From NCBI GenBank assembly GCA_016744855.1, contig JADGDO010000011.1:1-64000 (forward strand): a stretch of DNA of 64,000 bases. The letters are read 5' to 3'. The notes under the pieces are model-generated. The model had not been told where the DNA came from, made no database searches, and worked only from the letters and a program-made list of their open reading frames with translations. The DNA comes from Candidatus Fermentibacteraceae bacterium (lineage in GTDB: Bacteria; Fermentibacterota; Fermentibacteria; Fermentibacterales; JCC-6). Of this stretch, positions 30,979-37,130 are shown one piece after another. The position numbers and the translations under genes were made by a program. Position 1 is the stretch's first letter. Each line of letters begins with the position of its first letter.

Positions 30979-31051
30979 CAGTATTGCAAACTCAGAACTG
31001 GGCATGAATTGCCTTGCACTCTGCAAGGTCCTGAAGGAAAGGGAATTTCTC

Positions 31052-33460
31052 ATGAGAAGAACCATCGCAGTAATGTTTACAGATGTTGCGGGTTTTACCA
31101 CCTTCATGGAGCAGAATGAGAAAGACGCCATTGCAATGCTTGAAGAGATAAACAGATCGATTACTACGCTTCTCGACTCCCATTCAGGATCTCTGGTGAA
31201 AGAAATGGGAGATGGTACTCTCTCCTACTTCCTAAAGGGAAGATCCGCTATAAACTGTGCAAGAAAAATCCAGAAATCCCTTTCTGAACACAATTTTCAA
31301 CTAAGGATAGGCATACATTGGGGTAGTGTTATGCTGCAGGGAAACGACATACTCGGAGATACAGTCAATGTTGCTTCAAGATTAGAGAAAATGGCTCCTC
31401 CGGGTGGAATCTGCATTTCCTCAGAGCTTCTTCAAAATCTGGGTACGGGCAGAAAACCGGACACCTTCCCGCTGGGTCTTCAAAAGCTAAAGGGCTTGGG
31501 AAGGCTGATCAATCTGTTCCATGTGAAGGGCTCCAGGGGAGAGCCTCTGCCCATATCCCTAAAGAAGGAAGGGCAGGATGAAAACATTCCAGAATTCTCT
31601 CTTAGTGAATCAGTTCCATCGATAGCGGTCATGCCCCTTGAAAACCTTGGCTCTTCAGAAGATGATTTCTATGCCTATGGCATTACTTCCGATCTAGTTT
31701 CCACTCTCGCTGCAGCTGGTGGAATAGCAGTTACTCCTCTGACGGATCTCATGAAACTTATGAAAAATCAGAGCAGCAACAGTGAAATTGCAGACAAATT
31801 GAAGACCCGTTTTATCCTTAAGGGTTCTCTATGGAAGAAAGATGACTTGTTCCAGCTTTCTATTGAGCTCCACGATCTAAAAAAAGATAAGCTAATCTGG
31901 GCAGATAACTGGGTAGATAACTGGTTAGAGCTCTCTTCCATTAAGACAAAGCTTTCTGATGGTCTTCTGAAAGCCCTTGGAGTCAGACCTGTCACAAATG
32001 ATACTGTTTCAGATGATTCCTCAACTGAATCCAGAGCATATGAGATGTATCTAAATGCTTCTGATTTGTTTTACAACCGAAAATGCCTGGAGGATATTGA
32101 TAAGGCGAAAGAACTGCTCGACAAATCACTTGGTCTTCAACCCGACCTCTCTAGAGCGGCACTTCTTCACGGAGTTATTTGTACATACACCGGCGACCTT
32201 CAAGAGGCGATGCTGAAGCTGTCACATGCCTATGAAATGGCAATGGACAGTGGAGAAAGAGCAGGGGTAATACATGCTCTGAATTACATTGGTATTACTC
32301 AGGGAAGATTGTCCGAGTTCAAAAAAGCTAAAGCCACTTTTCTCCGTGCGATGATGCTGGCAAGAACTGTAGGTGACCTTTCCTCGGAAGCAAAAGCGCT
32401 CAGCAACATTGGTCTTATGGAGTGCAACATGGGCAACTATGCGAGTGCTCTCGAGCACATGGAGAAATCTTTGGAGGTACCGGGAGTCGACTCAATGGGA
32501 TTTCTTAAACCCAATACTCTTTGCAATATCGGGCTCACCCACTGGTTCATGGGAGAGAATTCAAGTGCACTGGATTTCTACAAAAAATCACTCTCTGTCT
32601 ATGAAGCCTTTAAAGACTTCAACGGGCAGGCAAGCCTGAATATGAACATTGGAATTGTCACAAGAAAAATGGGTTTATTCCAGGATTCCATCGCGCATAC
32701 AGAAAAAGCACTTGAACTCAACCTGCTTACCGGAGACAAGATGGGTCAGAGCAGAACCCTTGTTGGTATAGGCAACGTGCATAAGTACACAGGTTTTTAT
32801 GAGAAATCTCTGGCTTGCTACGCTGAAGCTATGGAAGTTGCGGATGAGATTGGTGACAGACTGAACTCAAGTATTATCAAGTCAAATATTGGAGTAATCC
32901 ACACGGCAAATAAAAACTACGACGAGGCTCTGTATTACTATGAGGATGCCCTGGCAATTTCTACTGAAATCAACGACAGAGAGGGCGAAGGGGAAATACT
33001 GTTTCTGATTGGAAACACTCTCAGGTTAAAAGCAGACACTGAAAAAGCGGATGAACAGCTTAGGGCTTCAATTCAGGTATTCAATGAGATAGGTGCAGAG
33101 GCACGAACCGTTCAACCCAGAACAGCTGTCGCTGTTCTGTTGTTGAAGTCTTCAGACCCTGAGAGTGAAACTGAGTTCTTAGAGCAGATCAAAATTGTAG
33201 AGCAGTATATCACTCCGGGAATGAATGACATAACCGAAACCCTCTTTTCTCTTTCAAACATCTACTCTGAATACTCTGATTTGCATTGTAAAGAGAAGAA
33301 AGCGGCGGCAAAGAGCCGTATCTATCTCAGAGATGCATTTGATTCTCTCATGAGGGAAGCCGGCAATATCCATGATCTGAAACTGAGGAATTCTTTCCTC
33401 GCTATCGATTTACACAGAGATATTACTGAAGCGTATAACTCGCCAAAGAGAAAAGAATAA
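31052..33460 (+). CDS. class III adenylate cyclase with TolB-like and TPR domains
   Basis: An 802-residue cytoplasmic protein. The start at 31052 was chosen because AAGGAAAGGGA lies 7 bases upstream; an ATG at 31004 has no site. The cyclase domain (1-170) has the metal Asp11 (FTDVAGF) and Asp54 (EMGDG) and base-binding Lys50. DTVNVASRLE gives Asp103, Asn106 and Arg110. These residues favour ATP as substrate. From about 188 to 320, SIAVMPLENLGSSEDDFYAY is the TolB-like domain found between cyclase and TPR parts in such proteins. About eight TPRs follow (to about residue 750). It is likely to produce cAMP in response to a protein-binding signal; no regulator of cAMP response is in the window. 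Confidence 0.92.
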   Translation: MRRTIAVMFTDVAGFTTFMEQNEKDAIAMLEEINRSITTLLDSHSGSLVKEMGDGTLSYFLKGRSAINCARKIQKSLSEHNFQLRIGIHWGSVMLQGNDILGDTVNVASRLEKMAPPGGICISSELLQNLGTGRKPDTFPLGLQKLKGLGRLINLFHVKGSRGEPLPISLKKEGQDENIPEFSLSESVPSIAVMPLENLGSSEDDFYAYGITSDLVSTLAAAGGIAVTPLTDLMKLMKNQSSNSEIADKLKTRFILKGSLWKKDDLFQLSIELHDLKKDKLIWADNWVDNWLELSSIKTKLSDGLLKALGVRPVTNDTVSDDSSTESRAYEMYLNASDLFYNRKCLEDIDKAKELLDKSLGLQPDLSRAALLHGVICTYTGDLQEAMLKLSHAYEMAMDSGERAGVIHALNYIGITQGRLSEFKKAKATFLRAMMLARTVGDLSSEAKALSNIGLMECNMGNYASALEHMEKSLEVPGVDSMGFLKPNTLCNIGLTHWFMGENSSALDFYKKSLSVYEAFKDFNGQASLNMNIGIVTRKMGLFQDSIAHTEKALELNLLTGDKMGQSRTLVGIGNVHKYTGFYEKSLACYAEAMEVADEIGDRLNSSIIKSNIGVIHTANKNYDEALYYYEDALAISTEINDREGEGEILFLIGNTLRLKADTEKADEQLRASIQVFNEIGAEARTVQPRTAVAVLLLKSSDPESETEFLEQIKIVEQYITPGMNDITETLFSLSNIYSEYSDLHCKEKKAAAKSRIYLRDAFDSLMREAGNIHDLKLRNSFLAIDLHRDITEAYNSPKRKE

Positions 33461-33477: not shown

Positions 33478-34701
33478 TCAGTTAACTACTTTAAGAAAGT
33501 TGCCGTCTTTCTCCAGCTCTTCAACAGAGCCGATGATGGCAGAAGTCTCATCTCCATTATTCTTCAACATAGTAACTGCTTTTTCAGCATCGTCAGGGTG
33601 TATGAAAGCAAGGAGACCTCCCGAGGTTTCAGACTCGGTAAGAAGCTTAAGATTATCGGAAGGAACACCGCTCTGTACAGTTAAAAAGGAATCAACATAC
33701 TCGCTGACTTTGCAGACTCCCAGAGTTGTAAATCGTTCAAGAAGCTGATAGATATCTGAAAGAAGCGGAACTGAGCTCTGGCATATCTGAACAGTAAGAT
33801 TGCTGCTTCTTGCCACAGGCAAAGCATGCCCTAGCAGGCCAAAACCTGTAACATCTGTCATTGCGCTGACTCTAAAACGACTCAAAACATCGGCAGCATA
33901 CATGTTAAGCCTGCTCATGGAAGCCGTGACTTCACGATACTGAGAATCAGAAACACCATCTTTCATCATGCCATTCGCATAAACACCTGTACCTAAGGGT
34001 TTTGTAATAATCACGAGATCATGAAGATTTGCGCTGCAGTTTGTCTTGATTCTGTCAGGATGAACTGTTCCGGTTACGCTCATTCCGTAAAGAAGATCCT
34101 CCTGCTCCATAGTATGCCCGCCGACAAGGGAAACTTTGGCCTCCACGAGTTTACGGCTTCCACCTGCAAGCATTTCTCCTATAGCCTCAGCATTAATTAG
34201 ACCCGGAGGGTAGGCAAGAACATTCATAGCAGTGTGAGCAGTTGCTCCCATTGCCCATATGTCAGAAAGAGAGTTGGCTGCTGCAATCATCCCGTTCATT
34301 CCTGGATCATTTACAACGGGGAAGAAAAAATCAACAGTCTGAACAAGAGCAATGTCATCTGTTATACGATACACTCCCGCATCATCCATGTTCTCCATTC
34401 CCACAAGAAGATTTGGTGAATCATAGCTGGGAAGCTGTTTCAGTATACCTGCCAGCCTGGCGGGTTTAAGCTTGCCTGCTCAACCGGCGCAGGGTGCATA
34501 ATCCAACAACCTTATCTCTTTACCATTTGGTATTGCCCGGTCAGGCTGGTTTGGAGTCTCACTAAGTCTGGCGGCAAGGTGTTCACAATAAGTGGTGTCT
34601 CCCCTACCGTGGTGAAAATCTATGCATTCTTTGCACTTGCCGTGTCGTACACAATCGGCAGGACAGGGGCAATTTATCCCATCATATAACTTTATCGCCA
34701 T
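33478..34701 (-). CDS. selD: selenide, water dikinase, selenocysteine-containing, with N-terminal Cys-rich extension
   Basis: SelD makes selenophosphate from selenide and ATP for selenocysteine and selenouridine synthesis. Reading the frame from ATG at 34701 through the in-frame TGA at 34480-34482 gives 407 residues. Across the TGA the order is LLDYAPCAG-U-AGKLKPARLAGI, which aligns with the E. coli SelD active site (AGCGCKISP), so residue 74 occupies the catalytic Cys17 position. The Lys after it is kept. Later motifs agree: SPNLLVG, DDAGVY, TVDFFFP, ALSDIWAMGA-like, MTDVTGFGLLGH, TSGGLL. The first ~45 residues hold C-P-C, C, C..C and C/H residues (CPCPADCVRHGKCKECI), resembling small Cys-rich DUF6485-type domains, fused in front. 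A strong 7-pair hairpin follows the UGA. No in-frame start exists between the Cys-rich part and the UGA except TTGs. It ends 17 bases from the convergent cyclase gene. Confidence 0.87.
34447..34465 (-). promoter_or_regulatory. candidate bacterial SECIS hairpin in selD
   Basis: On the minus strand ACCCGCCA-GGC-TGGCAGGT forms a stem (one C-A mismatch) with a short loop beginning GG. It starts 15 bases after the UGA, with the loop about 23 bases after it. This fits the known bacterial SECIS rule: a hairpin just 3' of the UGA with a G near the start of the loop. It lies within the coding sequence. Confidence 0.7.
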
Positions 34702-34724: not shown

Positions 34725-35831
34725 TCAGTCGCCCAATATGTAGAGCTTGTGGAAGTCTTCGGTAAGCATATCAAAAGCGAGAACTCCATAAGGGTTCACT
34801 TGCATATCAATGTAATATGCTGAATCAGGAAGAGCAACAACTATCTCTCTCAACTGTTCACCTGAACGGGAAACTACATCCCATAGATCTCCCGGTAACC
34901 CTCCTCTGCGGCACCAGATATTGCCATCCCTGTCTACTCCAAGGGCACTGATAAATGGTTGCTGGTCTGGCATGTTTACAAATGCCATCTCTGATGTACC
35001 ACTTTCATCAGAATAGGCGTATTGAAGTTGAAAAGCTCCCGGAACCATCACAGTATCCGGTGCTGATATCCTCTCGCGTTCATGAAAAAGAAGAAGTGTA
35101 TCGAGTGCTTCTGCCTCCTCGCCATATACTTCAACCATCCAATTATCGGATTGAATTCTACTCAGATACATTGTGCCAATACCGTCTGAAGTGGCTACCA
35201 GGTAGGCGGGTGTAAAGTCAGTAGATGGTGTTGGATTTCCCGACCAGGCAAAATATTCGGTTACAATTTCACCTGTGATAGCATGATATCTATTTAAGGA
35301 ATAGGTAACATTGATGCCTTCATCTCCCAGTTTCATACCAAAATAATAACAGACAAATGTTGAATCATTGAAGGCGAAACAATCAAGAGGTAGGCCTCCA
35401 AGACCCTCCATAGACCATCCAGCGAGAAATTCACCATTCTCATTAAATGCATTCACTTTCCCCATCATCTCTGCAACAACAACAATACCGGAAGAAAGTC
35501 TTGTGAATTTGAAAGGATGCTGAAACTCACCAGGCCCTCCCCCAAAACCACCAAAGCTTCTTTGGAAAACACCGCTGCTGTCAAAAACAGATACTGTTCC
35601 CTTTATTCTATCAAGAATTACAGGAGAAGCATCCGGTAGCATTGTATAGTCTGCGATTGCTCCAAGTGTATAGCAGCTATCACCCATCAGGATGCCTATT
35701 GAGTCAACAGCAGAAATAGTGTCAACAGGAATTCCTTCCGGTTCAGCCGACAACTCGATCACCGCCGGGCTCTCAGAACAGCCAGTAATCAAAAAGGTCA
35801 CTAATAGTAACAGTGATGTGAGATTTCTCAT
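34725..35831 (-). CDS. 6-bladed propeller lipoprotein (NHL-like)
   Basis: A 368-residue protein with lipobox LITGC and signal peptide (MRNLTSLLLLVTFLITGC). The pattern GTVSVFDSSGVFQRSFGGFGGGPGEFQHP is a strong NHL/6-bladed propeller signature seen in FCB lipoproteins. Further blades are less regular (NAFNENGEFLAGW, LGVDRDGNIWCRRGG). The gene is in a minus-strand row with DUF2141 upstream and selD 24 bases downstream, with no terminator. Its exact role is unknown; a lipoprotein upstream of selD in an operon is not explained by function. Confidence 0.78.
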   Translation of the reverse strand: MRNLTSLLLLVTFLITGCSESPAVIELSAEPEGIPVDTISAVDSIGILMGDSCYTLGAIADYTMLPDASPVILDRIKGTVSVFDSSGVFQRSFGGFGGGPGEFQHPFKFTRLSSGIVVVAEMMGKVNAFNENGEFLAGWSMEGLGGLPLDCFAFNDSTFVCYYFGMKLGDEGINVTYSLNRYHAITGEIVTEYFAWSGNPTPSTDFTPAYLVATSDGIGTMYLSRIQSDNWMVEVYGEEAEALDTLLLFHERERISAPDTVMVPGAFQLQYAYSDESGTSEMAFVNMPDQQPFISALGVDRDGNIWCRRGGLPGDLWDVVSRSGEQLREIVVALPDSAYYIDMQVNPYGVLAFDMLTEDFHKLYILGD

Positions 35832-35874
35832 ATTGCAAACCTTTCTGCTGATCTCATTATCTGTCGGGGTTTTT

Positions 35875-36315
35875 TTATAGTTCGATGGTCATTTCTAACG
35901 GTTCAATTCCCAGATCAAAAGAAGCATCTTCAAAGCTGGGTGGACCCATTCTTCCGGTCGCATTGTTGGATGCCCCGACCTTCTCACTGGGAGGGCCGTA
36001 GAACCTCATGTCCAACTCGCCATCATTGTCTTCATCATGATACACTGAAAATGCGTAAACTCCTGCGGGAAGGAAATCAAACGTAAATGTGACAGTTTCG
36101 GAAGTTACAGGCTCAGCAGCATCATACACGGCCTTCTCTAAGTCAGATGCGAAACCATCATCAGACATATAGAAAGCTATACGGACGGAACCTTCAATTT
36201 TATCAAACCCGGTAACATTAACTGTCAGGTATGTATAGTCATCAACTTCGACTTCTGCGAACGCCACAACGGACAATGTCAGTAATGCAAAGGGAAGCAG
36301 TAGAAATAATTTCAT
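35875..36315 (-). CDS. DUF2141 family secreted protein
   Basis: A 146-residue protein. The start at 36315 was chosen because AGAGG lies 6 bases upstream and a signal peptide follows (MKLFLLLPFALLTLSVVAFA). The body is a beta-sandwich with YLTVNVTGFDKIEGSVRIAFY, then LPAGVYAFSVYHDEDNDGEL, NGELD-type acid loop and FYGPPSEKVGASNNA, which is the DUF2141 pattern. Function unknown. It ends 43 bases before the propeller lipoprotein and starts 22 bases after the phosphoesterase. Confidence 0.8.
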   Translation of the reverse strand: MKLFLLLPFALLTLSVVAFAEVEVDDYTYLTVNVTGFDKIEGSVRIAFYMSDDGFASDLEKAVYDAAEPVTSETVTFTFDFLPAGVYAFSVYHDEDNDGELDMRFYGPPSEKVGASNNATGRMGPPSFEDASFDLGIEPLEMTIEL

Positions 36316-36337
36316 AGGAAACCTCTTTTTCACTTTT

Positions 36338-37048
36338 TTATTTGCCAAGATAGAGTCGTCCGGCAAGATTTCCGGGAAGACCAGCTTTGATAATGGAAGA
36401 TGCTGCAGCTTCTACATCATACTTCACCCGAACATGGCGGAAAGTTCTCTCTTCGGTATTAACAAGAAGATATGCGGCTCTGGGGTCTCCGTCTCGTGGC
36501 TGGCCCACACTACCGCAGTTAAGAAGGGAAAAGTCTGAAAATAATCCCGCAGGTTTATCAGAACAGCTGCCCATTCTGTTCCATTGCATAGGTATATGGG
36601 TGTGGCCGTATATTGACAGGCATTCACCTGCCGCAAGGATTGCATCTATAGCGGTTGCTGAATTCCGGATGTAAATCCAGGAGGAAGGGTTAACAACTGA
36701 AGCATGGCTAAGCCTGATTCCACAACATTTCAACTGCAGTGGAAGAGTGTTTATCCAGTCGATATAACTCTGTCCAAACTGCTTCCGGGTCCATTCAATA
36801 GCCTTCTGACCATCATGGTTGAAGTGGGAAATGCTGATAAGAGCAGCAGCACCCAAATCATGGTTACCAGCGATCACCTCATCACAGACATCGCGAACAA
36901 TATCAGCACACTCAACAGGGTTTGCGCCGTAACCCACCGTATCACCAAGACATATTGTTTTTTCTGCTTTAACTCCGGAAGAGTCATCAAGAACAGCCTT
37001 AAGTGCAGCGAGGTTACCATGAACATCGCTGAACACTCTTATCAACAT
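36338..37048 (-). CDS. calcineurin-like metallophosphoesterase
   Basis: A 236-residue protein with DVHGN, GDTVGYG, GNHD, and GHTHIPM motifs: the ligands of a two-metal phosphoesterase of the YfcE/DUF type. The start at 37048 was preferred because GGGGG lies 6 bases upstream; an ATG six bases earlier is too close to it. No signal peptide, so cytoplasmic. It heads a row of four minus-strand genes ending with selD. The substrate is unknown; relatives include phosphodiesterases and nucleotidases. Confidence 0.88.
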   Translation of the reverse strand: MLIRVFSDVHGNLAALKAVLDDSSGVKAEKTICLGDTVGYGANPVECADIVRDVCDEVIAGNHDLGAAALISISHFNHDGQKAIEWTRKQFGQSYIDWINTLPLQLKCCGIRLSHASVVNPSSWIYIRNSATAIDAILAAGECLSIYGHTHIPMQWNRMGSCSDKPAGLFSDFSLLNCGSVGQPRDGDPRAAYLLVNTEERTFRHVRVKYDVEAAASSIIKAGLPGNLAGRLYLGK

Positions 37049-37130
37049 GCGCATCCCCCATTGATTCTAAAAACCACCTAAGCTCATGTCCCCCCGAACA
37101 ACAACCAACACCCATGTACGCAACCTGATA

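Follow-up and report, generated by a model that had tools for sequence, protein, structure and literature searches.

The window, a 64,000-nucleotide stretch of DNA, carries on its reverse strand a selD gene which, judged from its sequence, encodes a genuine selenocysteine (Sec)-containing SelD. Such proteins are a known kind: that SelD can contain Sec is textbook knowledge, and many bacteria read an in-frame UGA of selD as Sec. The less ordinary part is a Cys-rich domain, similar to DUF6485, that is fused before SelD. As far as the open-access papers that we searched show, this fusion is an undescribed SelD architecture. The window belongs to a 3.24-Mb assembly (G000, 94.9% completeness), whose nearest named matches are Candidatus Sabulitectum MAGs of the phylum Fermentibacterota. 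The gene and its parts are located as follows.

33478..34701, reverse strand: selD gene, Sec-containing and fused to a Cys-rich domain; 407 residues with Sec at position 74, 408 codons if the stop is counted
34570..34672, reverse strand: core of the Cys-rich, DUF6485-like N-terminal domain; residues ~11-44, with C11, C13, C17, C23, C26, H30 and C39
34483..34569, reverse strand: variable linker, then the start of SelD up to the CAG that contributes C71 of CxxU; from the alignment
34480..34482, reverse strand: UGA within the frame (Sec74), aligned with Cys17 of E. coli SelD; from translation, alignment and conservation
34447..34465, reverse strand: bSECIS-type hairpin, 8-pair helix with triloop GGC; columns 18-25 pair with 29-36, the U of the UGA being column 1
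33478..34479, reverse strand: SelD catalytic part after Sec, with AIRS N- and C-terminal domains, from profiles and alignment

Translation confirms the reading frame given in a preliminary description of this DNA: from 34701, 73 codons lead to a TGA at 34482-34480, and 333 further codons lead to the TGA at 33480-33478. The frame starts MAIKLYDGINCPCPADCVRHGKCKECIDFHHGRGDTTYCEHL...IRLLDYAPCAG-UGA-AGKLKPARLAGILKQLPSYDSPNLLVG..., and the TGA at 34482-34480 is its sole interruption. When every frame of the window is scanned for continuation past a single TGA, that of selD comes out as by far the longest (76 + 333 open codons). The profile alignment across the UGA that had been proposed as a check gives a match of the TIGR00476 selD model to residues 64-371, spanning the UGA, with 315.4 bits against a cut-off of 125. 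The UGA had also been placed at the Cys17 position of E. coli SelD, and alignment with 3u0o (and with 2yye) bears this out and pairs Lys77 with Lys20. Lys77, Asp107, Asp124, Asp147 and Asp283 are invariant among relatives, and the SelD part of an AlphaFold model of the full fusion matches Aquifex SelD (2yye). One part of the earlier account needs amending: the 73 codons before the UGA had been assigned to selD as a whole, but only the last ~12 encode SelD, and the remainder encodes a separate Cys-rich domain and a linker.

One alternative is that the UGA is a real stop, which would end a 73-residue DUF6485-like protein and be followed by a decayed selD or by one re-initiating from GTG 34404. 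Mechanical ORF calling returns exactly these two ORFs, the split that the preliminary description had foreseen, and ORF callers would break up the second selD copy of this genome too. However, the segment between the UGA and 34404 is constrained at the amino acid level (dN 0.06-0.16) and contains the catalytic Lys, and dN is low both before and after the UGA. Among the SelD hits in 42 Fermentibacterota genomes, 45 of 47 have exactly one in-frame TGA at this site and none has TAA or TAG; the two hits that lack the UGA carry Cys (CSGC in G003:C20 and SAGC in G004:C160). Short peptide patterns recovered 13 loci from a collection of 84,980 species, and all 13 have the same UGA. A chance UGA is excluded by its conservation in these loci and in the phylum's SelD hits. 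With a covarying hairpin after the UGA and complete Sec machinery in the genome also standing against it, we consider a real stop highly improbable.

The 8-bp hairpin begins 14 nt 3' of the UGA. In an alignment of 41 distinct sites (42 distinct proteins) that is gap-free from the U of the UGA, columns 18-25 pair with columns 29-36 around a triloop of GGC, GGT or GTT, and some members, the window selD among them, have one A.C-type or C.A mismatch pair. Across 21 chosen distinct sequences, standard pairs occupy 92.3% of the cells, 27 cells are double changes, and four pairs are altered on both sides. Covariation in the hairpin is 0.382 compared to 0.098 when shuffled, a value that 0 of 500 shuffles reach, and sliding the partner columns by 1 to 3 leaves at most 47% paired. 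RNAalifold independently recovers the same helix. Folded as a single sequence, the hairpin of the window selD does not exceed shuffled sequences in stability (z 0.1 to 0.6), so the argument for a SECIS structure is the comparative one from covariation. Published bSECIS elements are modeled with an apical loop of 3-9 nt, a G in the first two loop positions and a distance of 16-37 nt from the UGA (PMC13188914); the selD hairpin agrees with this model, having a 3-nt loop, a G at loop positions 1-2 and 22 nt from the UGA to the loop. An Rfam scan of the window gave no match. At the hairpin, synonymous codons are constrained, with an identity of 0.74 at codons +7 to +12 versus 0.46 overall; this codon-level test is modest (p about 0.017, nine related genes). 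For the 25 codons after the UGA, dS is 0.6-1.3; elsewhere in selD it is saturated.

The preliminary description predicted that selA, selB and selC (tRNA-Sec) would be found elsewhere in the genome, and all three are there. The selB gene lies at C85:27694-28767 (316 bits) and encodes GTPase, beta-barrel and SECIS-binding winged-helix domains 2 and 3; selA scores 503 bits, and tRNA-Sec scores 68 bits with the anticodon TCA (UCA). Within the window itself, a tRNA scan found none. A search for Fdh-alpha returned only a relative below the cut-off, without a UGA. From these sequence comparisons, the window gene very probably encodes an active selenophosphate synthetase whose UGA is translated as Sec by way of the genome's SelA, SelB and tRNA-Sec and the bSECIS hairpin. 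The hairpin, within 54 nt of the UGA, would direct Sec insertion at Sec74, and the enzyme, by analogy with the SelD family, would use selenide and ATP to make the selenophosphate needed to synthesize Sec-tRNA. SelA is present in 36 of the 42 Fermentibacterota genomes and SelU, the selenouridine enzyme, in 0 of 42, and Sec is therefore the main known use of selenophosphate in the phylum. The selenium island of this genome (L138:2394-8683) comprises selB-selA, a divergent, UGA-containing second selD and YedF (TIGR03527, 137 bits), followed by an Rnf-type cluster.

This second selD, also fused and with a UGA, lies at C85:30587-31507, where it adjoins selA-selB and has the gene for the selenium protein YedF downstream. 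The preliminary description overlooked this paralogue, as it did the Cys-rich domain and the CxxU motif, and had held that a stop accompanied by a separate, complete selD would count against read-through. We rejected that argument on finding that the second selD likewise carries the UGA, at the same position. The window selD has no other selenium genes nearby. Upstream of it (34725-37054, reverse strand) are genes for a metallophosphatase, a DUF2141 protein and a beta-propeller lipoprotein, an arrangement conserved in the genus. Because the lipoprotein gene ends 23 bases before selD, co-transcription of selD with these neighbors is possible. On the other side, at 31004-33460 (forward strand), a gene for an adenylate/guanylate cyclase domain with TPR repeats converges on selD, 17 bases from the selD stop.

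The location of the two copies raises the question of which one supplies Sec synthesis. The C85 paralogue adjoins selA-selB and YedF while the window selD sits in an unrelated neighborhood of metallophosphatase, DUF2141 and lipoprotein genes, as would be expected if the paralogue fed Sec synthesis and the window SelD were a redundant or specialized second copy. We think this unlikely, although it deserves serious consideration. Most genomes of genus g2 hold only the window-type selD, together with selA, so this type alone is apparently able to serve Sec synthesis. Moreover, all catalytic residues are conserved in the window SelD, and the phylum has no SelU that would provide another known use of selenophosphate. 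A division of the two SelDs between Sec and selenouridine was rejected on the same absence of SelU from 42 genomes.

Residues 1-60 of the fused SelD fall outside the SelD model. They include a Cys-rich domain of ~45 residues with the pattern CPCP-x2-C-x-R-x-G-x-C-x2-C-x2-FHH-x6-TYC, invariant across relatives, which places six Cys and one His within a 29-residue core. Pfam and NCBIfam scans of residues 1-60 of the window SelD gave no match. A profile built from the domain matches in 40 of the 42 phylum genomes, and part of these matches are stand-alone proteins of 60-70 aa that end in TAA, TAG or TGA and have no SelD behind them. The best of these stand-alone relatives are DUF6485 proteins (PF20095, 53 bits). 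Fused and stand-alone proteins have C11, C13, C17, R19, G21, C23, C26, H30 and C39 in common, and profile-profile comparison of the fused domain with stand-alone DUF6485 proteins gives a probability of 97.5% (E 8.8e-12). However, the window domain and 11 of 11 fused members score below the PF20095 gathering threshold, which stand-alone relatives do reach, and the TWDRSF motif at the C terminus of the phylum's stand-alone proteins is absent from the SelD-fused domain. For these two reasons we call the domain DUF6485-like by sequence, a relative and not a member of DUF6485. The only matches of a PDB profile search with the domain were to superoxide dismutase helices and are due to chance, and AlphaFold confidence for it is low to middling (pLDDT 30-58 within the full fusion and 66.5 when modeled by itself), too uncertain to interpret. 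Small Cys/His proteins of 45-55 aa with the pattern CPCTYPGCxRHGxCxxCxxYHHxxGxKTxCxK (L120-L137) also occur in many of the sampled genomes of the phylum of G042, without a Pfam match and with no SelD behind them.

The window SelD and all fused SelDs share CAG-U, a CxxU motif that adds a second Cys, C71, three residues before Sec74. The unfused Sec-SelDs of G009, G014 and G022 are distant, have VG-U and lack the extra Cys. The coupling between motif and domain is not strict, since some SelDs that lack the fusion have CxxU or CxxC as well: an unfused copy of G006 has CAG-U, and G003:C20 has CSG-C. The gene tree unites all CAG-U SelDs in a single clade (support 100/99), and every member, L068 and L074 included, has the Cys-rich domain, except for that one G006 copy. 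A single fusion event that preceded the duplication is therefore the most likely origin.

The fused clade spans Fermentibacterota and one Kiritimatiellota MAG (L032), which is nested within it. Outside Fermentibacterota, the distribution was sampled by short peptide patterns and in 288 genomes of the L032 phylum, among which only the L032 genome has the fused form. Either gene transfer or a misplaced contig could account for this, though a neighboring sulfatase and a second SelD in that genome fit a host outside Fermentibacterota. Every genome considered here is a metagenome assembly, which could prompt the suspicion that the fused SelDs are artefacts of assembly or binning. The same fusion recurs in independent assemblies from many species and studies as a single well-supported clade, and a binning error is conceivable only for the Kiritimatiellota placement of L032, so that we give an artefact next to no credence. 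In one locus, L101:3758-4093 (G037:C71), the frame of a fused selD with UGA is lost ~25 codons on, which may reflect decay of this copy or a fault in the assembly.

Comparison with known systems separates the ordinary from the new. Like other Sec-containing SelDs of the TIGR00476 family, the window protein (315 bits) has Sec at the Cys17 position, the catalytic Lys and Asp residues, a bSECIS downstream and a Sec-decoding genome, but it is ~60 residues longer at the N terminus, where the Cys6-His domain lies, and has CxxU in place of the usual active-site motif. The published prokaryotic N-terminal fusions of SelD are with Ndh, all of them CxxC, and with NifS, which is CxxU (PMC2398784, PMC4561486). 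NifS-SelD of Geobacter sp. FRC-32 resembles our protein in its N-terminal fusion, the Sec in its SelD part and its CxxU motif; however, its partner is a PLP-dependent desulfurase and the fusion occurs in one strain, whereas here a 45-residue Cys-rich domain is found phylum-wide (PMC2398784, PMC4561486). Ndh-SelD (TIGR04369-like) is likewise extended at its N terminus, and its CxxC motif also puts a second Cys three residues ahead of the catalytic position; it differs in being a Cys-type enzyme whose fusion partner, a flavin dehydrogenase, is several hundred residues long (PMC2398784, PMC4561486). No Ndh-like or NifS-like partner was detected on the window SelD by Pfam and NCBIfam scans of residues 1-60, and its frame has only 73 codons ahead of the UGA. 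The domain itself shares with DUF6485 (PF20095) the pattern CxC-x3-C-x-R-x-G-x-C-x2-C-x3-H-x8-C, while differing from it in detectability by Pfam and in the missing TWDRSF motif. Searches of open-access papers turned up no report on DUF6485, on selenocysteine in Fermentibacter or on Cys-rich fusions of SelD.

These comparisons bear on what the domain may do. How SelD is supplied with selenium in the cell is not yet fully understood (PMC13188914), and NifS has been proposed as the selenium supplier in NifS-SelD (PMC2398784, PMC4561486). By analogy with the Ndh-SelD and NifS-SelD fusions, we tentatively propose that the Cys-rich domain and C71 handle selenium for Sec74: the Cys6-His domain together with C71 of CxxU would bind selenium, as selenide or perselenide, and pass it to Sec74, or would keep it reduced. 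Phylum-wide and combined with CxxU, the fusion is a compact candidate for a selenium delivery or protection step, and its partnership with SelD would be the first functional hint for DUF6485.

About as likely, in our estimate, is a structural or docking role, in which the domain would be purely a metal-binding element or a part that docks SelA or SelB, with no selenium chemistry. The core, with its six Cys and one His in 29 residues, might do no more than bind zinc, and small DUF6485-like proteins are widespread without an adjoining SelD. Confinement of the fused form to the clade with the CxxU active site, and an extra Cys beside the active site that fits redox or transfer chemistry, point toward selenium handling; the evidence is weak on both sides.

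A bolder version of selenium handling, which we regard as a long shot, would make the domain a dedicated carrier of selenide or perselenide to CxxU and the UGA a selenium gauge. With little selenium, translation would stop at the UGA and release a free 73-residue carrier; with enough, it would yield the carrier-SelD fusion. If this were true, DUF6485 proteins would become candidate handlers of selenium or persulfide more widely.

Other N-terminal extensions of SelD were also seen. In G006:C329, two UGA-containing selD genes (L061:344 and L061:1716) stand in tandem; the Cys-rich domain is fused to one of them, while the other has an unrelated extension rich in Glu, Pro and Ser. Two Cys-type SelDs (SAGCASK), at L105:230-420 (G004:C160) and L115:1339-1560 (G042:C12), have another Cys-rich extension, HCVCDPxKxCPCxxFKEKxxCxCAGE, with no Pfam match. 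Its CPC-x8-CxC spacing recalls that of the catalytic chain of ferredoxin-thioredoxin reductase.
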